This document shows, piece after piece, positions 1,316 to 25,873 of a DNA stretch of 35,038 nucleotides. This DNA comes from Clostridiales bacterium (GTDB lineage: Bacteria; Bacillota; Clostridia; Oscillospirales; Oscillospiraceae), in the NCBI GenBank assembly GCA_012521555.1, contig JAAYMC010000067.1, positions 1-35,038 of the forward strand, read 5' to 3'. A model generated the notes under the pieces. The model was not told the origin of the DNA and ran no database searches. It saw nothing but the letters and a program-made list of their open reading frames with translations. The first letter of the stretch is position 1. The number at the start of each line of letters is the position of its first letter. The translations under genes were made by a program, and so were the position numbers.

Positions 1316-2680
1316 CTAGCGGTCGCGCAGCGGGACAAATTCCATGTCCGGCGCGATGGCTTTGTATGCCGGGCGGATAATCCGGCTCTGGTTGAACACT
1401 TCCTCGATTCGGTGCGCGCACCAGCCGACCATGCGCGCGACGGCAAACAGCGGCGTGTACAGCTCGTCGGGGATGCCGAGCATCTTGTAGACAAAGCCGG
1501 AGTAGAAGTCGACGTTCACGCACATGCCCTCCGCCGACCGCCCTTCTTTTTCAAACGCCACGGGAATCAGGCGCTCCACCGAGGCAAACAGGTTAAACTC
1601 CGCTTCGTACGGCGTGCCCTTCGCGAGCTTTGACGCCAGGTCCCGCAGGCGGACGGCGCGCGGGTCGCTGAGCGTGTAGATGGCGTGGCCGAAGCCGTAG
1701 ATGAGGCCGTCCCCGCAGCCGGCTTCCTTCCGCAGGATGCGGCGCAGGTACGCGACGATTTCCTCGTCGTCCGTCCAGTCCTTCACGCCTTCCTCGATGC
1801 ACTTGAACATCTCCATAACCTTCTTGTTCGCGCCGCCGTGCTTCGGGCCTTTGAGCGAGCCGACGGCCGCGGCGATGGCCGAGTAAATGTCCGTCCCCGT
1901 CGAGGAGAGCACGCGGCAGGCGAAAGCCGAGTTGTTGCCGCCGCCGTGTTCGGCGTGCAAAACGAGGCACAGGTCGAGAAGCTGCGCCTCCTCCCGCGTA
2001 AAGGAGCTGTTCTGGCGGGCGATGTGCAGGAAGTTTTCCGCCGTGGACAGGCCGTCCTGCGGGCGGTGGATGATGAGGCTCTCCTTGTCGAAGTAGTGGC
2101 GCTTGGCCGCGAACGCGTGCGCCACGATGACGGGGCAGCGCGCAATCAGGTGCAGCGCCTTGTCAAGCTCCGAGCGCAGATCCGTCAGCTCCGGGTTCGG
2201 GTCATACGAATACAGAGCCAGCACGCTGCGGGCGAGCTTGTTCATGATGTCGATGCTCGGCGCGGAGAGGATCATATCCTCCGTAAAGCCGGGGGGCAGG
2301 GTCCTGTACTCGGCAAGTATGTCCTGAAAAACCTGAAGTGATGTACTGTCCGGCAGTTTGCCGAAAAGGAGCAGGTAGGCCGTCTCCTCAAAGCCGAAAC
2401 GCCCCTCGCCCATGAAACCGTCTATGAGCTTTTCAACGTCGATGCCCCGGTAGACGAGCTGCCCGCGCATGGGCTGGCGCACGCCATCCATAAGCTTGTA
2501 GCCGCGCACGTCGCCGATGCGCGTGATGCCGGCCATGACGCCCGTCCCGTCGGCATTGCGCAGGCCGCGCTTGACGTCCGTACCCACGTACTGCGATATG
2601 TCCACCGATATGCTCTCCTGGATATCGGCAATTCTGTTGTCGATAAACTCAGCAACGACTTTTGAAACGTCGGGCTGCAT
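1316..2680 (-). CDS. Citrate synthase (Si type)
   Basis: 454 aa; RGIDVEKLI, LHAEHGGGNNSAF, GSLKGPKHGGANKKV, GFGHAIYTLSDPRA, NVDFYSGFVYKMLGIP motifs. Confidence 0.95.
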   Translation of the reverse strand: MQPDVSKVVAEFIDNRIADIQESISVDISQYVGTDVKRGLRNADGTGVMAGITRIGDVRGYKLMDGVRQPMRGQLVYRGIDVEKLIDGFMGEGRFGFEETAYLLLFGKLPDSTSLQVFQDILAEYRTLPPGFTEDMILSAPSIDIMNKLARSVLALYSYDPNPELTDLRSELDKALHLIARCPVIVAHAFAAKRHYFDKESLIIHRPQDGLSTAENFLHIARQNSSFTREEAQLLDLCLVLHAEHGGGNNSAFACRVLSSTGTDIYSAIAAAVGSLKGPKHGGANKKVMEMFKCIEEGVKDWTDDEEIVAYLRRILRKEAGCGDGLIYGFGHAIYTLSDPRAVRLRDLASKLAKGTPYEAEFNLFASVERLIPVAFEKEGRSAEGMCVNVDFYSGFVYKMLGIPDELYTPLFAVARMVGWCAHRIEEVFNQSRIIRPAYKAIAPDMEFVPLRDR

Positions 2681-2925
2681 GATGCTCTTCCCTCGCCTTC
2701 TGGAAAGTACTAAACAATTAAAGTGATTTTACTCCGAATTGCAGACAAAGTCAATAAATTTGCATGATAATTCTTGGTGACTTGCATGAAACGCGCTTTC
2801 GGGCCTTTTTAAGCGGATTTGACCAAACGTTAGAATAAATTCCAGAAAGTAGCAAATAATACAGGTGTGTCAAGCGCAAAAAGCCTGCTGTTTTGAACTG
2901 AACTTGCATTGGAGGTTACTTTGAA

Positions 2926-3927
2926 ATGAAACGAAGCTTTAGGCTCAAAAGCGCACTGATTCTCGCTTTGGCCCTCTCGGCTTTCAGCCTCGCGCTCGCC
3001 GCTCCCGCCATTGCGGAGTTTTGGCCCACGATGGCGACGACGATAACGTCCAACGCGCGGCCGATTGCCGAGAACATCGAGCTCGAGACGTACCGCTCCG
3101 TTTCGGTGTCGGCCCGGTTTAAGGCCGTCGACCCGGACGGCGACGAGGTGACGTTCGAGCTTGTGGACATGCCCAAGAAAGGCACCGTGAAGGTGGAGGA
3201 GGACGGCACGTTCACCTACACCCCCGACTCGGGCAAGCGCGGGCGCGACACGTTTACCTACATCGCCTGCGACCCGAAGGGCGGCCTGTCGAACAAGGCG
3301 ACGGTCACCATCGAAATCAGGAAGCAGCAGACGGACATCACCTATTCCGACATCGCCGGGACGGGCCTTGAGTATCCCGCCGTCGCGCTGGCGGAGAGAG
3401 GCGTCTTTATGGGCGACGCCATCGCCGGCCGCTACTTCTTCCGCCCGGCGCAGACCGTCACGCGCGGCGAATTTGTGGCGATGTGCCTGGCGCTGTCCGG
3501 GACGGAGACGCTCAAGGACATCGTCCGCACCGGGTTTTACGACGACGACAAGATTCCCCAGTGGGTCAAGCCCTACGTCTCGACGGCTCTGATGAACGGC
3601 CTCATCACCGGCTGCAAGACGGAGGACGGGCGCCTCGTCTTTAACGCCAACGACCCGATCACCGTCGCGCAGGCGGCCGTCATCCTCAACAACATGCTGC
3701 GGCCGACGGACGTCTCCGTCTCGGCCTTCGCCGAGATGACCTCCCTGCCCTCCTGGGCGCATCAGGCGGGCGCGAACCTCGACGCCTGCGACATCCTCCC
3801 GAGCGAGACGGCAGACTACAACGCCTATCTCACGCGCGCGCAGGCGGCCGAAATGCTGGTCAGGTCCATGCGCCTGCTCGACAGCCGCGACGACGACCGC
3901 TCCATTCTCAGCTGGGTGCAGTTTTAG
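2926..3927 (+). CDS. Secreted protein with signal peptide, cadherin-like/Ig-like tandem-repeat domain and SLH-type repeats
   Basis: N-terminal signal (MKRSFRLKSALILALALSAFSLALAAPAIA); DPDGDEVTFELVDMPKKGTVKVEEDGTFTYTPDSGKRGRDTFTYIACDPKG; SLH-like YSDIAGTGLEYPAVALAERGVFMGD...TVTRGEFVAMCLALSG. Confidence 0.85.
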   Translation: MKRSFRLKSALILALALSAFSLALAAPAIAEFWPTMATTITSNARPIAENIELETYRSVSVSARFKAVDPDGDEVTFELVDMPKKGTVKVEEDGTFTYTPDSGKRGRDTFTYIACDPKGGLSNKATVTIEIRKQQTDITYSDIAGTGLEYPAVALAERGVFMGDAIAGRYFFRPAQTVTRGEFVAMCLALSGTETLKDIVRTGFYDDDKIPQWVKPYVSTALMNGLITGCKTEDGRLVFNANDPITVAQAAVILNNMLRPTDVSVSAFAEMTSLPSWAHQAGANLDACDILPSETADYNAYLTRAQAAEMLVRSMRLLDSRDDDRSILSWVQF

Positions 3928-6637: not shown

Positions 6638-9600
6638 ATGTCCACAAAGCACCGCCGGGACGCGCGCCCGGAGGAGACGCATCAGAATTCTGTTGAAACG
6701 GCCAGAAAAGGCGGGCTCGTTTCGACTTTCCATACAGCTCAGAAGGCTCTGCGCCACCTTGCGGAGATAAAGGACGTTGTGCGGGACGGGACGCGGTACG
6801 CCGCGGAACACGTCAGCATCCCGCAGGCCCTCGAGTGGCTTCTCGACAACTGGTACATCGCCGAACGGGAGGGCAAAGGCGCCGCGGACGACATAAGGCG
6901 CCTTGGCCGCCTGCCGCGATGCGGGGACGGGAAAACCCTCTTCGTCCTGTACGCGGCGCATGAGTATTTGGACAGGCAAAATGACGCCGTCGACGCCGAT
7001 TCCCTCGAGGCGTTTCTCGACGATTTTCAGACGGAGACCATCCTCAGCGAAGCGGAACTGGCGGCCATGATCCCCGCCGTGCGCCTTGCCCTCATCGAGC
7101 GGCTCGCCGAAGAGGCGGCCGGCCTGCTTCGGGCGCTCGGCGGCGGGGTGGCGCAGTCACTCACGGAGCTTGCCGGGACGTTCTCCCGCATTTTCACGTC
7201 CCTGCGGTTCCTCTCAGGGTTTGACAGCTCCGACCTGCTCGAGCGCGTCGGGCGCGTCGAACACCTGATGAGGCAGGACCCCGCCGGCGTCTACCCCGAG
7301 ATGGACGAAGCAACGCGCCACGACTACCGCCGGACGCTTGCGCGCCTTGCCGAAAAGCACGGCATGAGCGAGCACGAGGCGGCGGAGAAAATCCTTGCCC
7401 TCGCGCGGGAGAGCGGCGAGCATATAGGGAATTACCTTTACGTAAAGCCCCTTGGGAAAGAGATCAAAACGCCGCGCGGCGGGCTGTACATCGCCTCGAT
7501 TGTCTTAACGAGCCTGGCGCTGAGCATCCTCGCGGCGCTGCTTTTGCGCCATCCTGTCTATCTTGTCGCGCTGTTTTTCCCGCTTTCATCTCTCGTCAAA
7601 AGCGCGGCGGACTATGTGGTCCTTAAGTTTTGCCCGATCCGCCGCGTCCCGCGCCTTGCCCTGGAGGGTGGCGTGCCAGAAGAAGGGCGGGCGCTGTGCG
7701 TCATCTCGCTTCTGCTCACGTCGGAGGATGAGGCGAAAAGGGCCGCGGCGCTCCTTGAGGAATACGCCCTGGCCAACCGCGACGCGGGGAAAAATGTCTC
7801 CTACGGCCTGCTCGTCGACCTGCCCGACTCCCTCGAGGCGGAGACGGATGCGGACAGGGCGCGCCTTGCGCACGCGGCGAGGGAGATTGCGGAGCTGAAC
7901 GCGCGGCATGGCGGCGGTTTTTTTCTTTTTTACCGCGCCAAGACATACAGCCGGTCGAGCCGGTGCTACACCCCTTGGGAGCGCAAGCGGGGCGCGATTT
8001 TGGAGATGTGCCGCCACCTGCGCGGAAAAAGCAGCCGGATTGTCTGTCTTACCGGCGACGTGAAGGCGCTTCACGGCACGCGCTACCTCATTACGCTTGA
8101 CGGCGACACGCGCCTTTGCGCCGGGACGGCGCGGGAGCTCATCGGCGCGGCGATGCACCCGCTTTGCCGCGCCGCCGTCGATGAAAAAAGGCGCGTCGTC
8201 GTCTCCGGCTGCGGCATCATCCAGCCGCGCGTGACGGTGGACCTCACAGCGTCGAACCAGACGGCGTTTACCCGCGTCTTCGCCGGGCTCGGCGGCATCG
8301 ACCCGTACGGCGCGACCGTCGGGGACGTGTACCAGAACCTCGCGGGCGCCGGCAGCTTCACCGGGAAAGGGCTCATCGACGTCGACGCGTACCTGGAGTG
8401 CCTCGACGGGCGCTTCCCGCAGGAGCTTGTCCTCTCCCACGACTTGCTGGAAGGCGCTTACCTGCGCTGCGCCTTCGCCGGCGACATCGAGGTGACGGAC
8501 GGCTTCCCCGCCAAGGTCACCTCCTACTTTGACCGCATGCACCGCTGGACGCGCGGGGACTGGCAGTCCGCGCCGTGGCTCTTCCCCGTCGTGAAAGACG
8601 AAAGCGGGCGGCTTGTGCCCAATCCCCTCTCCGCGCTCGACAAGTGGAAGATTTTCGACAATCTCCGGCGCTCGCTCGTGCCGGTTGCGACGTTTATCCT
8701 GCTCGTTGCGGCGATTATCACGGGCGCGCGCGCGCCGGTCTGGGCGGCCGTGGCGGCGTTCGGGGCGCAGATTGCGCGCCTTGCGGTGCTGTCGGCGTCG
8801 TCCCTCCTGCGGGGGCGGCGCGCTCGGGCGCGGTACCACTCGACCGTCGTCTCCGGCGTCCGGGCGGCGCTGGCGCAAAGCGCGCTGCAGTTTCTGTTTC
8901 TGCCGTACGAGGCGTGGATTTGCCTGTCGGCCGCCCTGACGGCGCTGTGGCGGATGCTGATATCCCGCCGCAACCTGCTCAAGTGGGTCACGGCCGCCGA
9001 CGCGGAGCGGCGCGCGCAGGGCGGCGCGGCGGACGCGTTCGTGAAAATGTCGCCCGCGCTCATCCCCTGCGCGATGGCCGCCGCCCTCTCGCCGCACATC
9101 GCGGGCACAATCCTCGCGCTCGTCTGGTTTATCTCCCCCTTCGTTGCGGCGCGCATCAGCCGCAAGCCGAGGCCGGGCACCGAGGCGCTGCGCGCGGAGG
9201 ACAGGCGCTTCCTCCTCCGCTGCGCGGGCGATATCTGGCGCTTTTTCGAGACGTTTCTCACGACGGCCGACCACTTTCTCCCGCCGGATAACTATCAGGA
9301 GCAGCCGGCCGTCGGCATCGCGCACCGCACGTCGCCGACGAACATCGGCCTTGCGCTGCTCTCCTGCCTTGCCGCCGCCGACCTTGGGCTGTGCAGGAAG
9401 GAAAAGGCGCTCTCCCTCATCGCGCAGACGCTCACAACCGTCGAGCGGCTGCCGAAGTGGAACGGGCACCTGTACAACTGGTACGACACGCTCACGCTCA
9501 CCGTCCTGCCGCCGGCGTATGTCTCAAGCGTCGACAGCGGCAACTTCGCCGGGTGCCTCATCGCCCTGCGGGAGGGGCTCCTTGAGTACGGCGCGGCCGA

Positions 9601-12600
9601 CCTCGCCGAACGCGCCAACGCTCTGCTGAAGGCCATGTCCTTTGAGCCGCTGTACGATAAAAAGCGCCGGCTCTTCTATATCGGCATCGACGCGGACAAA
9701 AACGCGCCCACGCAGGGGTGGTACGACCTGCTCGCCTCCGAAGCGCGTCAGACGAGCTACATCGCCGTCGCCCGCGGCGAGGTGCCGAAAAAGCACTGGC
9801 GCAGCCTCGGCCGCGCCCTCGTGGAAAAGGACGGGTACCGCGGCATGGCGTCCTGGACGGGCACGATGTTCGAGTACCTGATGCCCGAAATCCTCCTCCC
9901 CTGCTACCCTAACTCGCTCATCTACGAGAGCCTGAAATTCTGCCTGTATATCCAGAAGAAGCAGGCGAAAAGCAAGCCGTGGGGCATGTCGGAAAGCGCC
10001 TTTTACGCCTACGACCACACCTTGAGCTACCGCTACAAGGCCCACGGCGCCGCCACGCTCGCCCTCAAGCGCGGCATGGAACGGGACACCGTCGTCTCGC
10101 CGTATTCGACGTTCCTCGCGCTCCCGATAGAGCCGCGCGCGGCCGTCAGGAACCTAAAATACCTGCAAAAGCTCGGCGCGGAAGGGCGGTACGGCTTCTA
10201 CGAGGCCCTTGACTTCACGCCCGAACGGCTGCCCGAGGACAAGCCGTACGAAATCGTCAGGACGTATATGGCCCACCACCTCGGCATGAGCCTGCTGTCC
10301 ATCGCAAACGCCCTCAAGGGCGGCGTCATACAAAAGCGGTTCATGCGCGACAAGCTCATGGCGGCGTTTGCAGAGCTCCTGCAGGAAAAGCTCCCCGTCG
10401 GCGGCGTCGTGCTCAGGCCCTCCCCCCGCGACGTGCCGGAAAAGCCCCTGCGCGCCTCGGCGGACAGGTGGCGGTATGCCTCCAGCACGCCCGACTACAG
10501 CCACCCCGCCTTCACGCTCCTCGGAAACGGGGCGTACCATGTCGCAATTTCCGAGACGGGGCTGAATCGCTCCGTCTGGAACGGGCTTGAAATCATGCAG
10601 TGCGGCACGGAGCCTTTCTCCATGCAGGCGGGCTTGACGTTCTACCTGCGCGTGGGCGAAGACATCATCCCGCTGCAGTGCGCGCCCGTTTTCAGCGAGA
10701 CGGTGCACTATTCGGCGGAGCTGTCCGGCTCCTGCTGCCGCCTCATGGCGCAAAGCGGGCCGATTTCATCGGTTGTGACGGCGACGGTGCCGAAGGACGA
10801 GACGGGCGAGTTGCGGACGGTGGAGATCACCTCGCGCGTAAGCTGCGAGGCCGAGCTTGTCTGCTACGGCGAGCCGGTGCTCGCGCGGGGGGACGATTTT
10901 GCCTCCCACCCGGCCTTTTCCAAGCTCTCGCTGCAAAGCGCCGTGGTGGATGGCGCCGTCGTCTTCCGCCGCCGCCCCCGCGCGCGCGGGCAGGGCTACG
11001 CGCTGGCAGCGGCCGTGTCGTGCCCGTATACGTTTGACACGTCGCGCGAAAAGGCGCTCGGGCGCGGAGGATTTCACGCGCTCCCGTCGGCGCTGTCCCG
11101 CCCCGCGGGCGGGAGCGCGGGGTCCGTGCTTGACCCGTGCCTGCTCCTGCGCGTGCCGCTGCGCCTTGAGGCGGGGAAAACGGAGCGCGTGCGCTTTGCC
11201 TTGACCGTGTCGCAGGAGCCCGACGCCGCCGCCTGGTCGGCCCTGCGCCTTGTCGGCGAGCCGGAGCGCGCGCCGGCTTCGCACCTTGACGTCATCGCCG
11301 AGGAGCTCAGCTTAAGTCACGAGGACATCGCCCGCGCGATGGCGCTTGTGCCGTACCTGCTGCTCCAGCCGCTGGCACGCGAGATTCCGCAGGAGTGCAT
11401 GGACGCGCTCGCCCTCGGGCAAAGCGGCCTGTGGGTGTTCGGCGTGTCGGGAGATTTGCCGATTGTCGCCTGCGTTGTGGAGGACGAGGAGGCGCTGAAC
11501 GAGGCGGCTTCGATGCTTGCCATGCACCGCCTGCTTCGTGAAAACGGCGTTGCGTTCGACCTCGTCTTTGTCCTAAAGGACGGCGGCGAATACCGCAGCA
11601 CGCTGCGGGAAGGCATCGTCTCCCGCCTGCGCCGGCAGGAGTACGAGTATATCCTCGGCGCGCGCGGCGGTGTGCACACCGTCGACGCGGCGGCGGACAA
11701 CGTGCGGCTGCTGCTGGCTGCGGCGGTGAAGGTCATCCGCACGCGAAGCGACTTTGCCCGCGAGGGCGCCGTCACGGTCCGCCCCGCCCTCGGCGAGCGC
11801 TTTTTCCCGCCCGTACAGCGCCGAGAGCTTGAGTACGGGTACGACGAGGAAAACAGCTTCGTCTTTACGGTAAGCGGTAAGCTGCCGCCCAACGCGTGGA
11901 GCCACGTGCTGGCAAACGAGCGCTTCGGATTTGTGGCGACGGACGCGGGGACGGGCCATTTATGGCACATAAACGCCCGCGAAAACAAAATCAACCAGTG
12001 GCGCAACGACTCGCTTCTCACGCTTGGGACGGAGACGCTCTCGGCATTTATAAGCGGCCGGCCTGTCTCCCTGTTTGCCGCGGAGGACGGCTTTACCTGC
12101 CGCGTCACGTACGGGTTCGGCTGGGCCGAGTGGCGCAAGACCATCGGAGACGTGCAGTTTACGACGACGGCCTTCGTCCCGCCGGACCGCGCCGCCCGCG
12201 TTCTGATGATTGAAGCGTCCGAAGGGAGCCTTGCCGATATCGAATACTACACGGACCTCGTCCTCGCCCCCGACGCGCGCGACGCCGTTTACACCGAGAC
12301 GCGGGAGGAGGGCGGCGTCATCTCGGCGCAAAACCGCTACAACCGCGCCTTTGACGGTTCGGTCTTCCGCCTGACTGCCTCGCAGCCGTACGACGAGTTT
12401 ACCTGCTCGCAGCTCAGCTACAAGACGGGGCGGCTCGACGGCAGGACGGGCGCGGGCTTTCTCCCCTGCGCCGCCGCCCGGTGGCGCGGCGTGCAGACGC
12501 TTGTCATCGTGACGGGGTGCGAAGACGCGGATGTTCTGCGCGCGCTCGCGCAGCCGGCAAGCGCCGCTTCGGCGCTAGAGGACACGAAGCGTTACTGGAA

Positions 12601-14077
12601 GGACCTAACGGGAAAGCTGACCGTCTCGACGCAATACGAGGAACTTGACCGCTATATCAACGGCTGGGCCGTTTACCAGGCTCTCGCCTGCCGCATCTTC
12701 GGGCGCACGTCCCTCTACCAGAGCGGCGGTGCGTACGGATTCCGCGACCAGCTGCAGGATATCTGCGCCGTCCTCGACGAGGCGCCGGACGTCGCCCGCG
12801 CGCACATTCTCCGCGCCGCGGCGCACCAGTTCGAGGAGGGCGACGTCCAGCACTGGTGGCACCCCGCCATCTCCGGCGGGCCTGACAAAGGCGTGCGCAC
12901 CCGCTGCAGCGACGACCTGCTGTGGCTGCCCTTCGCCCTGTGCCAGTACGTCGAAAAGACGGGCGACCGCTCGATTCTGGACGAGACGGTGCCGTACCTC
13001 ACCTCTCCCGTCCTCGGCGAGGGCGAGCACGAGCGGTACGAACAGCCGCAAATCAGCGAAAAGAGCGCGAGCGTCCTGCAGCACGCCGTCGACGCGGCGC
13101 TGCTCGTCATCCGGCGCGGGACGGGGCGCAACGGGCTCCTGCTCATCGGCACCGGCGACTGGAACGACGGGCTCAACCTCGTCGGCGCGCGGGGCGACGG
13201 CGAGAGCGTGTGGCTGACGTGGTTTGCCGTCATCGTCTTTCGCCGCCTTGCCGCCCTCTGCCAGGAGCGCGGGATGCCGGGCGTGGCGGCGACGCTCCTT
13301 GAAAAAGCGGAGGAGTATTTTACCGCCGCGGAAAACGCGTGGGACGGCGCGTGGTACAAGCGCGGCTACTACGACAACGGCGCGCCCCTCGGCTCGTGCA
13401 CGAGCGACGAGTGCCAGATTGACTCCATCGCGCAGAGCTTCGCCGTCTTCGCCGGGGCGGACAGGGAAAAGGCGCGCACGGCGCTGATAAGCTCGGTGAA
13501 GCGGCTTTATGACCCATCCAGCCGCGTCGTGCGGCTTTTCGACCCGCCGTTTTCGCACGGCGGCAGCGTGCCGGGGTATATTAAAGGGTACAGCCCGGGG
13601 TTTCGGGAAAACGGCGGGCAGTACACCCACGGGGCAATCTGGCTGGCGATGGCGCTGCTTCGCGCCGGCATGAAGCGCGAGGGATTTGAGATTACGCGCG
13701 CGCTGTCGCCCCTCGGACGGCTGCTTGAGGTCTACCGCACGGAGCCGTACGTCATCGCCGCCGACGTCTACTGGGCGCAGGGGCACGTCGGGCGCGGCGG
13801 CTGGACGTGGTACACGGGCGCGGCGGGCTGGTACAAACGCCTTGTGGTGGAAGAGCTGCTGGGCCTTGCCGTCATAAACGGGGCGCTGCACATAAGGCCC
13901 AGCCTGCCGCCCGGCTTTGGCGGATATACCGCACGCTGGCGACACGGCGGCAAAACGTACGACATCACCGTGCGGGACAACGGGACGGTCGAGGTCACCT
14001 GCGGCGGGGCGCCCGCCGATGACGGCAGCGTCGTCGTCTACAAGGCAAGTCCCGTGAAGGCTTTAGGCGAAAATTAA
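6638..14077 (+). CDS. Cyclic beta-1,2-glucan synthase-like giant protein (GT84-type glycosyltransferase plus GH94-type phosphorylase domain)
   Basis: 2479 aa; glycosyltransferase motifs YLITLDGDTRL and RMHRWTRGDWQ; several hydrophobic TM segments; glucoamylase-like central region (TGTMFEYLMPEILLPCYPNSLIYES); C-terminal GH94 signature LLIGTGDWNDGLNLVG; RBS gggagg at 6622. Confidence 0.92.
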   Translation: MSTKHRRDARPEETHQNSVETARKGGLVSTFHTAQKALRHLAEIKDVVRDGTRYAAEHVSIPQALEWLLDNWYIAEREGKGAADDIRRLGRLPRCGDGKTLFVLYAAHEYLDRQNDAVDADSLEAFLDDFQTETILSEAELAAMIPAVRLALIERLAEEAAGLLRALGGGVAQSLTELAGTFSRIFTSLRFLSGFDSSDLLERVGRVEHLMRQDPAGVYPEMDEATRHDYRRTLARLAEKHGMSEHEAAEKILALARESGEHIGNYLYVKPLGKEIKTPRGGLYIASIVLTSLALSILAALLLRHPVYLVALFFPLSSLVKSAADYVVLKFCPIRRVPRLALEGGVPEEGRALCVISLLLTSEDEAKRAAALLEEYALANRDAGKNVSYGLLVDLPDSLEAETDADRARLAHAAREIAELNARHGGGFFLFYRAKTYSRSSRCYTPWERKRGAILEMCRHLRGKSSRIVCLTGDVKALHGTRYLITLDGDTRLCAGTARELIGAAMHPLCRAAVDEKRRVVVSGCGIIQPRVTVDLTASNQTAFTRVFAGLGGIDPYGATVGDVYQNLAGAGSFTGKGLIDVDAYLECLDGRFPQELVLSHDLLEGAYLRCAFAGDIEVTDGFPAKVTSYFDRMHRWTRGDWQSAPWLFPVVKDESGRLVPNPLSALDKWKIFDNLRRSLVPVATFILLVAAIITGARAPVWAAVAAFGAQIARLAVLSASSLLRGRRARARYHSTVVSGVRAALAQSALQFLFLPYEAWICLSAALTALWRMLISRRNLLKWVTAADAERRAQGGAADAFVKMSPALIPCAMAAALSPHIAGTILALVWFISPFVAARISRKPRPGTEALRAEDRRFLLRCAGDIWRFFETFLTTADHFLPPDNYQEQPAVGIAHRTSPTNIGLALLSCLAAADLGLCRKEKALSLIAQTLTTVERLPKWNGHLYNWYDTLTLTVLPPAYVSSVDSGNFAGCLIALREGLLEYGAADLAERANALLKAMSFEPLYDKKRRLFYIGIDADKNAPTQGWYDLLASEARQTSYIAVARGEVPKKHWRSLGRALVEKDGYRGMASWTGTMFEYLMPEILLPCYPNSLIYESLKFCLYIQKKQAKSKPWGMSESAFYAYDHTLSYRYKAHGAATLALKRGMERDTVVSPYSTFLALPIEPRAAVRNLKYLQKLGAEGRYGFYEALDFTPERLPEDKPYEIVRTYMAHHLGMSLLSIANALKGGVIQKRFMRDKLMAAFAELLQEKLPVGGVVLRPSPRDVPEKPLRASADRWRYASSTPDYSHPAFTLLGNGAYHVAISETGLNRSVWNGLEIMQCGTEPFSMQAGLTFYLRVGEDIIPLQCAPVFSETVHYSAELSGSCCRLMAQSGPISSVVTATVPKDETGELRTVEITSRVSCEAELVCYGEPVLARGDDFASHPAFSKLSLQSAVVDGAVVFRRRPRARGQGYALAAAVSCPYTFDTSREKALGRGGFHALPSALSRPAGGSAGSVLDPCLLLRVPLRLEAGKTERVRFALTVSQEPDAAAWSALRLVGEPERAPASHLDVIAEELSLSHEDIARAMALVPYLLLQPLAREIPQECMDALALGQSGLWVFGVSGDLPIVACVVEDEEALNEAASMLAMHRLLRENGVAFDLVFVLKDGGEYRSTLREGIVSRLRRQEYEYILGARGGVHTVDAAADNVRLLLAAAVKVIRTRSDFAREGAVTVRPALGERFFPPVQRRELEYGYDEENSFVFTVSGKLPPNAWSHVLANERFGFVATDAGTGHLWHINARENKINQWRNDSLLTLGTETLSAFISGRPVSLFAAEDGFTCRVTYGFGWAEWRKTIGDVQFTTTAFVPPDRAARVLMIEASEGSLADIEYYTDLVLAPDARDAVYTETREEGGVISAQNRYNRAFDGSVFRLTASQPYDEFTCSQLSYKTGRLDGRTGAGFLPCAAARWRGVQTLVIVTGCEDADVLRALAQPASAASALEDTKRYWKDLTGKLTVSTQYEELDRYINGWAVYQALACRIFGRTSLYQSGGAYGFRDQLQDICAVLDEAPDVARAHILRAAAHQFEEGDVQHWWHPAISGGPDKGVRTRCSDDLLWLPFALCQYVEKTGDRSILDETVPYLTSPVLGEGEHERYEQPQISEKSASVLQHAVDAALLVIRRGTGRNGLLLIGTGDWNDGLNLVGARGDGESVWLTWFAVIVFRRLAALCQERGMPGVAATLLEKAEEYFTAAENAWDGAWYKRGYYDNGAPLGSCTSDECQIDSIAQSFAVFAGADREKARTALISSVKRLYDPSSRVVRLFDPPFSHGGSVPGYIKGYSPGFRENGGQYTHGAIWLAMALLRAGMKREGFEITRALSPLGRLLEVYRTEPYVIAADVYWAQGHVGRGGWTWYTGAAGWYKRLVVEELLGLAVINGALHIRPSLPPGFGGYTARWRHGGKTYDITVRDNGTVEVTCGGAPADDGSVVVYKASPVKALGEN

Positions 14078-18740: not shown

Positions 18741-19667
18741 ATGAAAGTCACGGATATTCTCAATCAGCGCATGGCATTTAGCTTTGAGGTTTTTCCTCCG
18801 AAGACTGACAACGGAATGGAAAAACTGTGCGGCAAAGGCGGCGTGCTGGAACAGCTCGTCTCCATGAAGCCCGACTACATTTCCTGCACCTACGGCGCCG
18901 GCGGCACGAACGTCGGCAAGAACCTCGAAGTTCTTGACCACATCAAGGCGCTCGGCACCATCGGCGTCACGCACTTCACCTGCGTTGGCAACACCAAGGA
19001 AGGCATCAAGCAGCAGCTCCAGACCTACCTCGACCACGGCATCGACCACATCCTCGCCCTCCGCGGCGACCTGCCGTTCGGCTGGACGGGCACTGGCGGC
19101 GACCTGCACTACGCCACCGAGCTCGTGAAGTTCATCCGCGACGAGTTTGGCGACAAGTTCACCATCGCCGTTGCCGGTTCGCCCGAAGGCCACATCGCCT
19201 GCCGCAGCATTGAGGCGGACATCTCCTTCCTCAAGCAGAAGCAGGACAACGGCGCCGACTATATCATGACTCAGCTGTGCTGGGATATGGACCAGTTCCG
19301 CTGGTGGATGGACGCCATCCGCGCTGCCGGCATCACCATGCCGGTCGACGTGGGCATCATGCCCGTTCTCGATGCCGCCGCGACCATCAACATGGCGCTC
19401 TCCCGCAACGGCTGCGTCATCCCGCGCAAGCTCGCCGAGATCATCTCCAAGTACTGGATCTTCCCGAACCCGTTCGCGCCGAACGAGTCCGAGGAGTCCA
19501 TCGCCCAGAAGAAGCGCGACTTCAAGGAAGCCGGCATCGAGTACACCATCCGCCTCATCGACGAGTACCGCGTGTGCGGCATCCAGGGCATCCACCTCTA
19601 CGCGCTCAACAAGTACGAAGATGTGGCTCGCATCGTAAAAGAGTCCGGCATCAAAGACATGGTGTAA
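18741..19667 (+). CDS. metF: 5,10-methylenetetrahydrofolate reductase
   Basis: 308 aa; FSFEVFPPKTDNGMEKL, SCTYGAGGT, HILALRGDLP, GADYIMTQLCWD, MPVDVGIMPV. Confidence 0.95.
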   Translation: MKVTDILNQRMAFSFEVFPPKTDNGMEKLCGKGGVLEQLVSMKPDYISCTYGAGGTNVGKNLEVLDHIKALGTIGVTHFTCVGNTKEGIKQQLQTYLDHGIDHILALRGDLPFGWTGTGGDLHYATELVKFIRDEFGDKFTIAVAGSPEGHIACRSIEADISFLKQKQDNGADYIMTQLCWDMDQFRWWMDAIRAAGITMPVDVGIMPVLDAAATINMALSRNGCVIPRKLAEIISKYWIFPNPFAPNESEESIAQKKRDFKEAGIEYTIRLIDEYRVCGIQGIHLYALNKYEDVARIVKESGIKDMV

Positions 19668-19747: not shown

Positions 19748-21430
19748 TTGGAGTACAAGACAGATATTGAAATTGCCCAGGCTACAGAGCTTTCCCACAT
19801 CAGAGAGATCGCCAAGACGGCCGGTATTGACGAGAAATACCTCGAGCAGTACGGCAACTATAAGGCGAAGGTTGACCTGAACATCTTCAACGAGCTGAAA
19901 GATAAGCCCAACGGCAAGCTCGTCCTCGTGACGGCCATCACGCCGACCCCGGCCGGCGAAGGCAAGACGACGACGACCGTCGGCCTCGGCGACGGCCTGC
20001 GCAAGATCGGCAAGAAGAGCATGATCGCCCTGCGCGAGCCCTCCCTCGGCCCGGTCTTCGGCGTCAAGGGCGGCGCCGCCGGCGGCGGTTACGCTCAGGT
20101 TGTCCCGATGGAGGACATCAACCTCCACTTCACGGGCGACATGCACGCCATCGGCGCGGCCAACAACCTGCTCGCCGCCATGCTCGACAACCACATCTTC
20201 CAGGGCAACGCGCTCGGCATCGACACGCGCCGCATTACCTGGCGCCGCTGCGTCGACATGAACGACCGCCAGCTCCGCAACATCGTCAACGGCCTCGGCG
20301 GCCGCACGGACGGCGTGCCGCGTGAGGACGGCTACGACATCACCGTCGCGTCCGAAATCATGGCTATCCTCTGCCTCGCTTCGGACATCATCGACCTCAA
20401 GGAGCGCCTCGGCCGCATCATCGTCGGCTACACGAGAGACGAAAAGCCCATCACCGCCGCCGACCTGAAGGCCCAGGGCGCCATGGCGGCCCTCCTGAAG
20501 GACGCCATCAAGCCGAACCTGGTCCAGACCCTGGAGCACACCCCGGCGTTTGTCCATGGCGGCCCGTTTGCCAACATCGCCCACGGCTGTAACAGCGTCA
20601 TCGCCACGAAGATGGCCCTGAAGCTGGCCGACTACGTCGTCACGGAAGCCGGCTTCGGCGCTGACCTCGGCGCTGAGAAGTTCCTCGACATCAAGTGCCG
20701 CATGGCCGGCCTCAAGCCCGACGCCGTTGTCATCGTCGCCACGGTCCGCGCCCTCAAGATGCACGGCGGCGTGCCGAAGACGGAGCTCGGCAAGGAGAAC
20801 CTCGAGGCTCTCGAGAAGGGCCTGCCGAACCTCCTGCGCCATGTCGAGAACATCACGAAGGTCTTCAAGCTCCCGGCCGTCGTCGCCATCAACGCGTTCC
20901 CGCAGGATACGAAGGCCGAGCTCGAGCTCGTCGAGAAGCGCTGCAATGAGCTGGGCGTCAACGTCGCTCTGTCCGAAGTGTGGGCCAAGGGCGGCGAAGG
21001 CGGCAAGGCTCTTGCTCAGGAAGTCGTCCGCCTCTGCGAGCAGGGCAGCAACAAGGACTTCACCTACGCCTACGACCTCGACATGTCCATCGAGGAGAAG
21101 ATCGAAGCCATCGCGAAGAAGATCTACCGCGCCAGCGCCGTGGAGTTTGTCGGCAACGCGCCCAAGCAGCTGAAGACCCTCACGGATCTCGGCTTCGACA
21201 AGGTTCCCATCTGCATGGCCAAGACCCAGTACAGCTTCTCCGACGACCCGACGAAGCTCGGCGCGCCCGAGAACTTCGAGGTCACCATCCGCAACCTCAA
21301 GATTTCCGCCGGCGCCGGCTTCATCGTCGCGCTCACGGGCGAAATCATGACGATGCCCGGCCTGCCGAAGGTCCCCGCCGCCGAGAAGATCGACGTCGAC
21401 GCCAGCGGCAGAATCTCCGGCCTGTTCTAA
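19748..21430 (+). CDS. fhs: Formate--tetrahydrofolate ligase, TTG start
   Basis: 560 aa; [22 protein letters not shown]-loop, [40 protein letters not shown]; aggaggg RBS before TTG. Confidence 0.98.
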
Positions 21431-21528: not shown

Positions 21529-22146
21529 ATGTCGTTTGTCAAAGCTTCCTGCACCGAATTTGTCGACGTGCTGGCTTCGAAGGCCCCCGTCCCGGGCGGC
21601 GGCGGCGCTTCCGCGCTTGTCGGCGCCATCGGCACGGCCCTCGGCTCCATGGTCGGCAATCTGACGGTCGGTAAGAAGAAATACGCAGACGTAGAGGCCG
21701 ATATCATTAAAATTCTGGAAAAGGCCGAGGCGCTTCAGAAGGAGCTTTTACGGCTCGTCGACGAAGACGCCGTTGTGTTCGAGCCGCTTTCCAAGGCTTA
21801 CGGCATCCCCAAGGATGACCCCAACAGAGAGAAAATCATGGAAGAGGCGCTTCGCAACGCCTGCTCCGTTCCTTTGGACATCATGCGCGCCTGCTGCCGC
21901 GCCATCGAACTGCACGAAGAGCTGGCCGCCAAGGGCAGCGCACTTGCCCTCTCCGACGTCGGTGTCGGCGTTGCTTTCTGCAAGTCCGCCCTGATGGGGG
22001 CGAGCCTCAACGTGTTTATCAATACGAAATCGATGGTCGACAGAGAGTATGCCGCGAAAATCGAAAAGGAAGCGGACGAGATGCTGTCCAAGTACTGCGC
22101 TCTGGCCGATAGCATCTATGACTCCGTCATCAAGCGCCTGAGATAG
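21529..22146 (+). CDS. fchA: Cyclodeaminase/methenyl-THF cyclohydrolase (FTCD_C-like)
   Basis: 205 aa; EFVDVLASKAPVPGGGGASALVGAIGTALGSMVGNLTVGKKKY. Confidence 0.93.
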   Translation: MSFVKASCTEFVDVLASKAPVPGGGGASALVGAIGTALGSMVGNLTVGKKKYADVEADIIKILEKAEALQKELLRLVDEDAVVFEPLSKAYGIPKDDPNREKIMEEALRNACSVPLDIMRACCRAIELHEELAAKGSALALSDVGVGVAFCKSALMGASLNVFINTKSMVDREYAAKIEKEADEMLSKYCALADSIYDSVIKRLR

Positions 22147-22157
22147 GAGTATGGATT

Positions 22158-23006
22158 ATGGCAGAACTGCTTAAGGGTGCGGCCGTCGTTGCCGCCATGA
22201 ACGAAAGACTCACGGCTGAAGTCGCCGCTCTCAAGGAGAAGGGCGTCACCCCCACCCTCGCGATCCTTCGCGTCGGCGAGAGAGAGGACGACATCTCCTA
22301 CGAGAAGGGCGCCATGAAGCGCTGTGCGACGGTCGGCGTTGAAGTGAAGAACGTCGTTCTTCCCGCCGATGTCACTCAGGAAGAGCTGATGAAGAACATC
22401 GAAGCCCTCAACAACGACAAGAGCGTCCACGGCGTGCTCATCTTCCGCCCCCTGCCGAAACATCTCGACGAAGAGGCCGTCCGTCAGGCTCTCAAGCCCG
22501 AAAAGGACATCGACGGCATCACAGACGGCTCCCTCGCCGGCGTCTTTACGGGCAGCGGCAAAGGTTTCCCGCCCTGCACGGCTCAGGCCTGCATGGAAAT
22601 CCTCGACCACTATAAGATCGACTGCAAGGGCAAGCGCGCCGTCGTTATCGGGCGCAGCCTCGTCGTCGGCAAACCGGCGGCTGTCATGCTCATGGCCAAG
22701 AACGCGACGGTCACCGTCTGCCATACGAAGACCGTCGACATGCCCTCCGTGGCCAGGCAGGCCGAGATCCTCATCGTAGCCGCCGGCAAGGCAAACGCCA
22801 TCACGAAAGAGTACCTCTCACCCGGACAGGTTGTCATCGACGTCGGCATCAACGTGAACGAAGAAGGCAAGCTCTGCGGCGACGTCAAGTTTGATGACGC
22901 CGAGCCCATCGTCGGCGCCATTACCCCCGTTCCGGGCGGCGTCGGCACCGTGACCACCTCCGTGCTGGTTTCTCACGTTGTTGAAGCTGCAAAAAAATCA
23001 TTGTAA
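22158..23006 (+). CDS. folD: FolD-family methylene-THF dehydrogenase, with cyclohydrolase residues substituted
   Basis: 282 aa; EKDIDGIT, VVIGRSLVVGKPAAVMLM, VIDVGINV, TPVPGGVGTVTTSVL; SYEKGAMKRC and VLIFRPLPK replace the usual YVxxKxK and VQLPLP. Confidence 0.96.
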   Translation: MAELLKGAAVVAAMNERLTAEVAALKEKGVTPTLAILRVGEREDDISYEKGAMKRCATVGVEVKNVVLPADVTQEELMKNIEALNNDKSVHGVLIFRPLPKHLDEEAVRQALKPEKDIDGITDGSLAGVFTGSGKGFPPCTAQACMEILDHYKIDCKGKRAVVIGRSLVVGKPAAVMLMAKNATVTVCHTKTVDMPSVARQAEILIVAAGKANAITKEYLSPGQVVIDVGINVNEEGKLCGDVKFDDAEPIVGAITPVPGGVGTVTTSVLVSHVVEAAKKSL

Positions 23007-23025: not shown

Positions 23026-23826
23026 ATGATTATCATAGGTGAAAAACTCAACGGGTCTATCCCGTCCTGCGCGAAAGCGATTGCCGAGCGCAACGCCGAC
23101 TATATCCGCGACCTTGCCAAGAGGCAGGCCGAAGCCGGCGCCGATTTCATCGACGTGTGCGCTTCCATCAACGAGGGCGAGCTGGAGGTCCTTAAGTGGA
23201 TGATCGATCTCGTTCAGGAAGTGACGGACACGCCGATCTCCATCGACAGCCCGAACGCGAAGGTCCTCGTGGAAGCCATGAAGCTCGTCAAGAGGCCGGG
23301 CCTGTTCAACTCCGTCTCCGGCGAAGGCACGAAGATTGAGGACGCTTTCCCCCACCTGGCGGGCACCGACTGGCACGTCATGGCCCTTCTCTGCGACGAC
23401 ACCGGCATTCCGAAGACGGCGCAGAAGCGCATCGAAGTCTTCGAAATGATCATGAAGAAGGCCGACGAGTACGGCATCAAGCACGACCACATCCACATTG
23501 ACCCGCTTGTCGAGATGCTCTGCACCTCCGAAAACGGCATTGAGACGGTCGTCGAGGTCATGACCTATATCAAGACGCACTATCCCGAAGTCCACATCTC
23601 CGGCGCCGTCAGCAACATCTCCTTCAACCTGCCGGCCCGCCGCCTCATCAACCAGGCCTTTGCCGTCCTGGCTATGAACGCCGGTATGGACAGCGCCGTC
23701 CTCGATCCCCTCAACCAGGACCTCATGGGCATGATTTACGCGACGGAAGCGCTCCTCGGCAAGGACGAGATGTGCATCGAGTATATCACGAAGTACCGTG
23801 AGGGCATCTTCGGTCAGAAGAAATAA
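23026..23826 (+). CDS. Methyltetrahydrofolate:corrinoid methyltransferase (pterin-binding family, AcsE/MtgA-like)
   Basis: 266 aa; MIIIGEKLNGSIPS, ISIDSPN, LFNSVSGE, HIDPLVE, GAVSNISFNLPARRLIN. Confidence 0.93.
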   Translation: MIIIGEKLNGSIPSCAKAIAERNADYIRDLAKRQAEAGADFIDVCASINEGELEVLKWMIDLVQEVTDTPISIDSPNAKVLVEAMKLVKRPGLFNSVSGEGTKIEDAFPHLAGTDWHVMALLCDDTGIPKTAQKRIEVFEMIMKKADEYGIKHDHIHIDPLVEMLCTSENGIETVVEVMTYIKTHYPEVHISGAVSNISFNLPARRLINQAFAVLAMNAGMDSAVLDPLNQDLMGMIYATEALLGKDEMCIEYITKYREGIFGQKK

Positions 23827-23889
23827 CGTCGTCCCTTTGTTGTTACAACAATCACAATAGAAGAAGTATTATTACGGGAGGAAAATGAC

Positions 23890-24543
23890 ATGTCTAAAAT
23901 CCAGGAAATCGCGAAAGCCGTAGAACTCGGCAAGGTCAAGCTCATCGAAGGCCTCGTTAAGGAAGCTCTCGAAGCCGGCGAAGACGCGAACGCCATTCTC
24001 AACGAAGGCATGATCGCCGCCATGGGCATCGTTGGCCAGAAGTTCCAGAACAACGAAATCTTTGTTCCCGAAATGCTCGTCGCCGCCAAGACGATGAAGA
24101 AGGGCGTCGAAATCCTCAAGCCCCACCTCGCCGGCAGCAGCGTTGGCAAGTACGGCAAGTATATCATCGGCACCGTCGCTGGCGACCTGCACGACATCGG
24201 CAAGAACCTCGTTGCTCTGATGGTCGAGAGCGCTGGCTTCGAAGTCATTGACCTCGGCGTTGACGTTCCCGCTGAGAAATTCGTTGAGGCCATCAAGGCG
24301 AACCCGGATTGCAAGGTCGTTGGCGCTTCCGCCCTTCTGACCACGACGATGGACTCCCTCAGAAATACCGTCAAGGCTATGATCGATGCCGGCTGCAAGT
24401 CCCAGGTTAAGATCATGGTCGGCGGCGCCCCGATTACCCAGGCTTTCGCCGACGAAATCGGCGCCGACGCTTACACGCCCGACGCCGGCGCGGCCGCCGT
24501 CAAGGCTGTCGAGCTCGCCAAGGAAATGGGCGCTGGTGCGTAA
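23890..24543 (+). CDS. Corrinoid (B12-binding) methyltransferase protein, MtgC/MttC-like
   Basis: 217 aa; B12 base-off motif GDLHDIGKNLV (DxHxxG), SALLTTTM, GGAPITQAFADEIGADAYTPDAGAAAVK; gggagg RBS. Confidence 0.95.
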   Translation: MSKIQEIAKAVELGKVKLIEGLVKEALEAGEDANAILNEGMIAAMGIVGQKFQNNEIFVPEMLVAAKTMKKGVEILKPHLAGSSVGKYGKYIIGTVAGDLHDIGKNLVALMVESAGFEVIDLGVDVPAEKFVEAIKANPDCKVVGASALLTTTMDSLRNTVKAMIDAGCKSQVKIMVGGAPITQAFADEIGADAYTPDAGAAAVKAVELAKEMGAGA

Positions 24544-24563
24544 TCGCTGAAACTTAAAATACA

Positions 24564-24597
24564 AACGCGCCTGCTTAAAGCAGGCGCGTTTTTTATT
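24564..24597 (+). terminator. Rho-independent terminator ending the C1 operon
   Basis: AACGCGCCTGC-TTAAA-GCAGGCGCGTTTTTTATT. Confidence 0.93.
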
Positions 24598-24601
24598 GTT
24601 T

Positions 24602-25873
24602 CTATGATTTCTTAGCGCTTACGCTCTCGCGCTGGCGGGCTTTCGAGACTTCGTTGAAGTAGTTGTTCCGGAACCGTTTCGGCGAAACGCCCGTCTCCTT
24701 CTTAAACACCTTCGTAAAGTAGCTCTGGTCCTTAAAGCCGCACTGCGCGGAGATGACGGCAAGGCTCGAGCCGCCCTCCAGCAGCAGCTTCTTGCTTTTT
24801 TCCACGCGGACTTTCGTGATGTACGACGTCAGGCTCATGCCCGTCTCCTGCTTGAAGATGCTGCTAAGGTACGATTTGCTCAGGTAGACTTCCTTGGCGA
24901 GCTGGTCGAGCGTGAGCTTTTCGCCGCAGTGCTTTTTGATGTAGTTTGTGATTTTGAAAACGACGTCGGAGTGCTTGACCTGCGCGAGGTCGAAGGCCTG
25001 CACGATGAAGCGGCGAACGATATCGGAAATCCAGAACGCGAGCTGGTCGACGTCGTTGTAAGACTCAATCTGCTGGATGAAGTTTTCGGACAGCCGGAAC
25101 GTCTCCGCCGGGTCGGCCCCGGCCTCGATGGTCGCGCGCGAGAGGATGACAAGCAGCTCAAGCAATCGCGCTTTTATGGCGCTTAAGTCGAAGTTGGAAT
25201 AGACGTAAATATGCGCGAGCATTTCGTTGAGCATATCGAGCGCCGACGCCTTCTCGCCCCGCAAAACGGCAAGGCGCAGGTCTTTTTCAAAGCGCAGGAG
25301 CATATCCGCGCTCTGCTTGTCGCCGTCGGCGTAATAATCCTTGGCGATATAGATCTCCTTGAGGATTTTTTCCTGGTCGTAGAGCAGGCGCTGGAGCTTT
25401 TTATCCTCCGCGCTCGACACATACGCCGTCACGGCCGAGAGGATTTCCGCCATATCCTGCACTTTCGACGTCGGGAACACCTTCAGCTCCGACACGGCGC
25501 TTTCCATCTCCGGAACGGGAAGGTCCGCGAGGACGTCCTGCAGGTCGCCCATGACGAAAGGCCCGAGAACGAGGCCGCCGACGAGGTTGCCCGTGTCGCC
25601 GGAAATGGAGGAGGCGATAAACGTCAGACCCATCGGGCAGTAGTAAATGTACCGCCCGTTCCACCTGTGCGCTTCGTGGCACCCGTAGAGATGGGTGGAG
25701 AGCTCGTCGTTCTTATAGACGCAACGGGCGCAGAAGTTCTCATCTTCCGGCTGCGGCGTCAAGCTGGCCGCGCCGCTTTCAGGCATATCGACGAGCTTGC
25801 AACCGACGTCCAAAAGATGAGAAAAGTGCTTTTGAAATTTCACGCATTTTTCTCTTAAATCCTGCGCCAACAT
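24602..25873 (-). CDS. AraC-family regulator with N-terminal PocR-like sensory domain
   Basis: 423 aa; N-term FCARCVYKND...CHEAHRWNGRYIYYCPMGLTFIASSI...GNLVGGLVLGPFVMGD (PocR-like); C-term HTH KLTLDQLAKEVYLSKSYLSSIFKQETGMSLTSYI...SYFTKVFKKETGVSPKRFRNN. Confidence 0.9.
   Translation of the reverse strand: MLAQDLREKCVKFQKHFSHLLDVGCKLVDMPESGAASLTPQPEDENFCARCVYKNDELSTHLYGCHEAHRWNGRYIYYCPMGLTFIASSISGDTGNLVGGLVLGPFVMGDLQDVLADLPVPEMESAVSELKVFPTSKVQDMAEILSAVTAYVSSAEDKKLQRLLYDQEKILKEIYIAKDYYADGDKQSADMLLRFEKDLRLAVLRGEKASALDMLNEMLAHIYVYSNFDLSAIKARLLELLVILSRATIEAGADPAETFRLSENFIQQIESYNDVDQLAFWISDIVRRFIVQAFDLAQVKHSDVVFKITNYIKKHCGEKLTLDQLAKEVYLSKSYLSSIFKQETGMSLTSYITKVRVEKSKKLLLEGGSSLAVISAQCGFKDQSYFTKVFKKETGVSPKRFRNNYFNEVSKARQRESVSAKKS

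Follow-up and report, generated by a model that had tools for sequence, protein, structure and literature searches.

The question raised by this locus is whether its FolD still performs the methenyl-THF cyclohydrolase reaction, or whether that step has been handed over to FchA, whose gene lies 11 bases upstream of folD on the same strand. In most bacteria FolD is one enzyme for both folate activities. In the window, by which we mean the whole stretch of 35,038 nucleotides that was analysed, the observed gene order is metF, fhs, fchA, folD, a methyltransferase gene and a gene for an MtgC-like corrinoid protein, all on the forward strand, and then a PocR/AraC regulator gene on the reverse strand (Table 1). 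The window FolD is the only copy, and no second FolD of the normal type was found elsewhere in the genome.

Table 1. Positions of the genes and codons of the window that bear on the division of the two folate activities.
Feature	Position	Strand	Length (aa)	Evidence or equivalent site
metF, methylene-THF reductase	18741..19667	+	308	PF02219, E 2.8e-64
fhs, formate-THF ligase	19748..21430	+	560	NF010030 over cut-off; PF01268
fchA, stand-alone methenyl-THF cyclohydrolase (predicted)	21529..22146	+	205	PF04961, E 4e-67
folD, Lys-less/Gln-less methylene-THF dehydrogenase (predicted)	22158..23006	+	282	ATG start; PF00763, PF02882
Ala52, codon GCC	22311..22313	+		Catalytic Lys site, E. coli K54/human K56
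Phe96, codon TTC	22443..22445	+		Conserved Gln site, E. coli Q98/human Q100
Thr267, codon	22956..22958	+		E. coli V268/human V280, hydrophobic cage of the Lys (cage: PMC3368264)
Methyl-THF:corrinoid methyltransferase	23026..23826	+	266	NF005719 over cut-off; PF00809
MtgC-like corrinoid protein	23890..24543	+	217	NF047996, E 3e-59 (under cut-off); PF02310, PF02607
PocR-domain AraC-type regulator	24602..25873	-	423	PF10114, PF12833

A preliminary description of this DNA had placed Ala52 at the site of the catalytic Lys and Phe96 at that of the conserved Gln, and had found the Asp of the DGI/DGF motif to be kept. Our analysis confirmed these three readings. Both codons were read directly, and the register is gapless in alignments to the T. 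thermophilus, C. jejuni and human enzymes; the E. coli reference sequence used for alignment was checked against 1B0A. Since the register holds against these enzymes, misalignment of the two sites was rejected. The protein thus has neither the catalytic Lys of the YxxxK motif nor the conserved Gln of bifunctional FolD. Tyr48 (E. coli Y50, human Y52) and Asp119 (E. coli D121, human D125) are kept. The hydrophobic cage of the Lys is altered at two positions, Glu49 (E. coli V51, human I53) and Thr267 (Val in both enzymes), and Arg97 replaces the Leu adjoining the Gln site (human L101).

The FolD matched PF00763 (E 1e-35) and PF02882 (E 8e-57), with the NAD(P) domain kept. Its AlphaFold model (mean pLDDT 96.5) has an intact, ordinary FolD fold, with query-normalised TM scores of 0.91-0.97 to solved FolDs among the matches listed. 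The NCBIfam models that match it best are all named 'bifunctional', and all 25 listed scored below their cut-offs, the best with 281.6 bits where 421 is required.

Work on the human enzyme, in which Lys56 acts together with Gln100, implicates a hydrophobic cage with Ile53 and Val280 among its residues in holding the Lys in the unprotonated state (PMC3368264). The E. coli K54N mutant has no detectable cyclohydrolase and about 19% of the dehydrogenase, and Q98H has about 1% and 8%, respectively (PMC5688156). These measurements bear out the earlier claim that both residues are needed for the cyclohydrolase, and they point to its loss in the window FolD. The Lys and Gln assist hydride transfer as well (PMC3368264; PMC5688156), so the dehydrogenase of the window FolD must be compensated by other changes. 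We infer that this enzyme still oxidises methylene-THF.

The preliminary description had proposed a survey of the FolD sites against fchA across Clostridia, which we ran on 196 genomes of the class. FolD was present in 185 of them and was read from all 185; an FTCD_C protein over the cut-off was present in 70. Among the 119 genomes with a Lys/Gln FolD, 117 had no fchA and two had it. All 58 genomes whose FolD has neither residue carried fchA, as did the six with Gln at the Lys site and the Gln kept, the one with an Ile/Gln FolD, and the one with a FolD scored as unreadable. When the first FolD of a genome was Lys-less, fchA was therefore found in 65/65. Counted per genome, fchA accompanied a Lys-less FolD in 67/67 cases and was absent from 117/118 genomes with only Lys/Gln FolDs. 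Tyr48 and Asp119 are invariant in the 58 Lys-less/Gln-less FolDs, in which the Lys site is Ala, Ile, Leu, Val or Met. The absence of both residues from 58/58 FolDs of this type, and their retention in 117/117 Lys/Gln FolDs of genomes without fchA, indicate that the state seen in the window is neither chance nor sequencing error.

The odd cases mostly confirm the rule. One of the two Lys/Gln genomes with fchA (G003) carries a Lys-less FolD as well, encoded next to fchA. The other (G048) is a true exception, in which the FTCD_C protein is divergent (27% identity) and adjoins ABC-transporter-like genes, with no folate neighbours. The FolD of another genome (G181) was initially scored as a gap. 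This genome was found to hold a Lys/Gln folD that an in-frame TAA interrupts (L129, around 2500-3334) and an intact Lys-less FolD elsewhere (L210, 1135-1992). It has fchA too, and looks like a genome in which the bifunctional enzyme is just being replaced.

We also surveyed 61 genomes of the organism's own family, one per genus, of which 42 had fchA. Where FolD was read, and with the genome of the window not counted, fchA was found in 33/35 genomes with a Lys-less FolD and was absent from 12/12 with only Lys/Gln FolDs. The two Lys-less genomes in which no fchA was found, G223 (91% complete, 6% contaminated) and G243 (59% complete), are perhaps explained by assembly gaps. In G223 the Lys-less folD stands in an fhs-folD-folC-like order (L284), and this genome represents either an assembly gap or a lineage doing without FchA. 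The named genomes with Gln at the Lys site, nine of the Clostridium group and five of Omnitrophota (L232, L233, L234, L236 and L237), had fchA in 14/14 cases. The named Lys/Gln genomes (one Aquisalibacillus, one Oscillospiraceae, one Bacilli and two Patescibacteria) had none in 5/5. In four of the five Omnitrophota genomes the FTCD_C match is split into two neighbouring segments and leaves out profile positions of about 80-103, which amounts to a shortened FchA. Across more than 200 genomes, then, the Lys/Gln state of FolD appears to track fchA almost perfectly. Together with the E. coli mutants, this co-occurrence upholds the earlier proposal that the window FolD would be a dehydrogenase only, and assigning the cyclohydrolase step to FchA is a well-supported reading.

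How many independent events lie behind these counts was judged from a FolD tree of 258 rows, built without the trait columns. In this tree 93 Lys-less/Gln-less FolDs fall on one side of a branch with an SH-aLRT of 100 (77 in another tree). The Clostridium FolDs with Lys replaced by Gln form a separate group (SH-aLRT 99), and those of Omnitrophota form a third, in a clade of their own (SH-aLRT 100). The Lys state needs a minimum of only two changes on this tree, so the association rests on few events, and the Fisher p of 7e-45 for the two main classes overstates the independent evidence. Likewise, because the Lys-less/Gln-less FolDs are one subfamily, the co-occurrence counts reflect few evolutionary events. 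These features would also be expected if a single linked fchA-folD cassette had spread, with the residue changes being marks of lineage that have no functional link to fchA, and fchA does adjoin folD in 32/58 of the class loci. However, in the other 26/58 it is not adjacent, yet the genome still carries it at another place, a pattern that speaks against simple linkage. The Clostridium FolDs retain their Gln and come from genomes with fchA at another site, Omnitrophota show the same replacement and fchA in another phylum, and the changed residues are those that abolish the cyclohydrolase in E. coli (PMC5688156). We therefore consider hitch-hiking improbable.

The preliminary description had left one escape from a dehydrogenase-only FolD, namely that Lys50 or Lys54 of the YEKGAMK segment takes over the catalytic position. 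If these or another residue kept the enzyme bifunctional, FchA would be redundant or otherwise employed. Position 50 is indeed Lys or Arg more often in the Lys-less FolDs (55/58) than in the Lys/Gln FolDs (44/117), but it is Arg in 30 of those 58. Lys54 corresponds to E. coli K56 and is frequent in both types (49/58 and 86/117), and our comparison of the 58 with the 117 found no Lys newly conserved in the Lys-less type. The modelled helix 43-59 has residues 50 and 54 two places before and after 52, so that on ideal geometry they would point away. A FolD that was still bifunctional would also leave the near-perfect tie to fchA unexplained. On the ground of conservation the takeover was set aside, and we regard a bifunctional window FolD as very unlikely.

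In the dehydrogenase-only reading, FchA would be the cyclohydrolase. PF04961 (FTCD_C) spans residues 7-183 of the 205, i.e., nearly the whole protein, and fchA is the single match to this family in the genome. Its best relative in the PDB is the methenyl-THF cyclohydrolase 7vg4 (E 1.5e-44), ahead of cyclodeaminases. A role as formimino-THF cyclodeaminase in histidine or purine breakdown, with methenyl-THF opened only spontaneously, hardly survives: FchA belongs to FTCD_C and, despite an E of 1.5e-59, scores under the cut-off of the NCBIfam FchA model, and E. coli K54N is believed to survive through spontaneous hydrolysis (PMC5688156), but besides that best relative, fchA lies between fhs and folD and tracks Lys-less FolD across the class, and PF02971, the formiminotransferase N-domain of FTCD, is absent from the 96%-complete genome. 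For this last reason a part for FchA as the partner of a formiminotransferase was also set aside. The adjacency of the genes, their near-perfect co-occurrence and the lack of PF02971 thus support the earlier suggestion that FchA supplies the cyclohydrolase step, as far as gene content can indicate it.

Our analysis also showed CODH/ACS genes on another contig of the genome (C29). The cluster comprises two acsB, a CODH catalytic subunit, a CooC-like ATPase and RACo, with a CdhD-type subunit and a pterin-binding methyltransferase. The two acsB are both full-length, 55% identical and on opposite strands (L200:9616-11766, reverse; L200:16754-18880, forward). The presence of these genes indicates that the organism is acetogen-like, that the window carries the methyl branch of the Wood-Ljungdahl pathway, and that the FolD/FchA pair belongs to that branch. 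The region 23026-25873, with the methyltransferase, the corrinoid protein and the regulator, suggests regulated entry of methyl groups that a methylated substrate would supply; no methyltransferase for such a substrate was recognised next to it. Further upstream, 6638-14077 encodes a protein of 2479 aa with GH94, GH94 supersandwich and glucoamylase-like domains, which resembles cyclic beta-glucan synthases.

We propose that the window FolD is a methylene-THF dehydrogenase and that, of the two activities usual for FolD, it has lost the cyclohydrolase. Ala52 has taken the place of the catalytic Lys and Phe96 that of its partner Gln, and the cage that keeps the Lys unprotonated is altered in part, at Glu49 and Thr267. 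Tyr48, Asp119 and the NAD(P)-binding domain would still bind pterin and cofactor and permit hydride transfer. FchA would interconvert 10-formyl-THF and methenyl-THF. Fhs, MetF and the FolD/FchA pair would make up the methyl branch, which the downstream methyltransferase and corrinoid protein might tie to methyl-group exchange. We consider this proposal, a FolD dehydrogenase without cyclohydrolase and its partner FchA in the Wood-Ljungdahl methyl branch, highly probable; the analysis itself showed the residues, the gene order, the co-occurrence, the predicted fold and the CODH/ACS genes, and the catalytic activities and direction of flux are what we infer.

Position 267 also differs between the two types. 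In the class it is Ile, Val or Arg in 119/119 Lys/Gln FolDs and Thr, Ser or Asn in 58/58 Lys-less/Gln-less ones. It is Thr in the six Clostridium FolDs with Gln at the Lys site, Val in those of Omnitrophota, and Pro in two divergent Lys-less copies of the own-family sample. Convergence on Thr267 between Clostridium and the main Lys-less groups is not claimed, since a single loss common to both would fit the tree. In E. coli FolD, K54 is the anchor for the inhibitor carolacton, which packs against P265 and V268; the dehydrogenase activity left in K54N does not respond to carolacton at all (PMC5688156). By alignment, Ala, Thr and Thr occupy these three sites in the window FolD. As the contacts are replaced and K54N is insensitive, insensitivity to carolacton is expected for the Lys-less type. 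The Lys-less FolDs may be a distinct, widespread dehydrogenase-only subfamily, in which Thr, Ser or Asn at human position 280 and further changes in the pocket restore hydride transfer in the absence of the Lys and which is intrinsically carolacton-insensitive; to us this wider idea could equally well prove right or wrong. If it is right, carolacton would spare acetogens and many Clostridia.

Such a FolD goes by the name 'bifunctional' in genome pipelines and in papers. A survey of acetogens from 2023 called folD bifunctional, yet most acetogens in it had both fchA and folD (PMC10103890). A rule on two residues, whether FolD has Lys at E. coli position 54 and Gln at 98, foretells the absence or presence of a separate cyclohydrolase in almost every genome tested. 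It would correct metabolic models of acetogens and make carolacton sensitivity predictable, and it carries the warning that a Lys-less FolD alone cannot stand in for E. coli FolD in engineered formate pathways. A division of the enzyme known from biochemistry can here be read from sequence.

The split into separate enzymes is already known biochemically and so is its mechanism; the window pair is another case. The FolD of C. perfringens is reportedly monofunctional and leaves the cyclohydrolase reaction to FchA (Aluri et al. 2016, Microbiology 162:145, on FolD, FchA and Fhs; listed among the references of PMC7219735 and PMC11559097). It would resemble the window in having a dehydrogenase-only FolD with FchA for the cyclohydrolase. 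The named Clostridium relatives have Gln at the Lys site and keep the Gln, in contrast to the Ala and Phe of the window FolD.

Among acetogens, M. thermoacetica has a bifunctional enzyme, whereas C. formicoaceticum and A. woodii have separate monofunctional ones (PMC9124964; source there Clark and Ljungdahl 1982). The window would resemble the latter two in having a pair of monofunctional proteins for the two activities. The order in A. woodii is fhs1-fchA-folD, continuing with rnfC2-metV-metF (PMC6925170). The order fhs-fchA-folD is common to both, but in the window metF is upstream of fhs, and neither metV nor rnfC2 was recognised beside it. Yeast Mtd1 (1EDZ) is, going by titles cited in PMC11064299, an NAD-dependent monofunctional methylene-THF dehydrogenase. 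It has Thr and Tyr at the Lys and Gln alignment positions, so that both are replaced as in the window. However, it is eukaryotic, is distant from the window FolD (E 2e-6), and carries Glu where the window FolD has the pterin-binding Asp.

Bifunctional FolD of the E. coli, human MTHFD1 and M. thermoacetica type shares its fold and NAD(P) domain with the window FolD, which is 34-40% identical to the E. coli and human enzymes in the structure matches but lacks the catalytic Lys and Gln of this type. In the literature searched, which comprised non-subscription papers, no statement of the two-residue rule or of its tie to fchA was found, and we claim no priority. To the known systems our analysis adds a near-perfect sequence rule, evidence that such FolDs are misnamed 'bifunctional', and a prediction of carolacton insensitivity.
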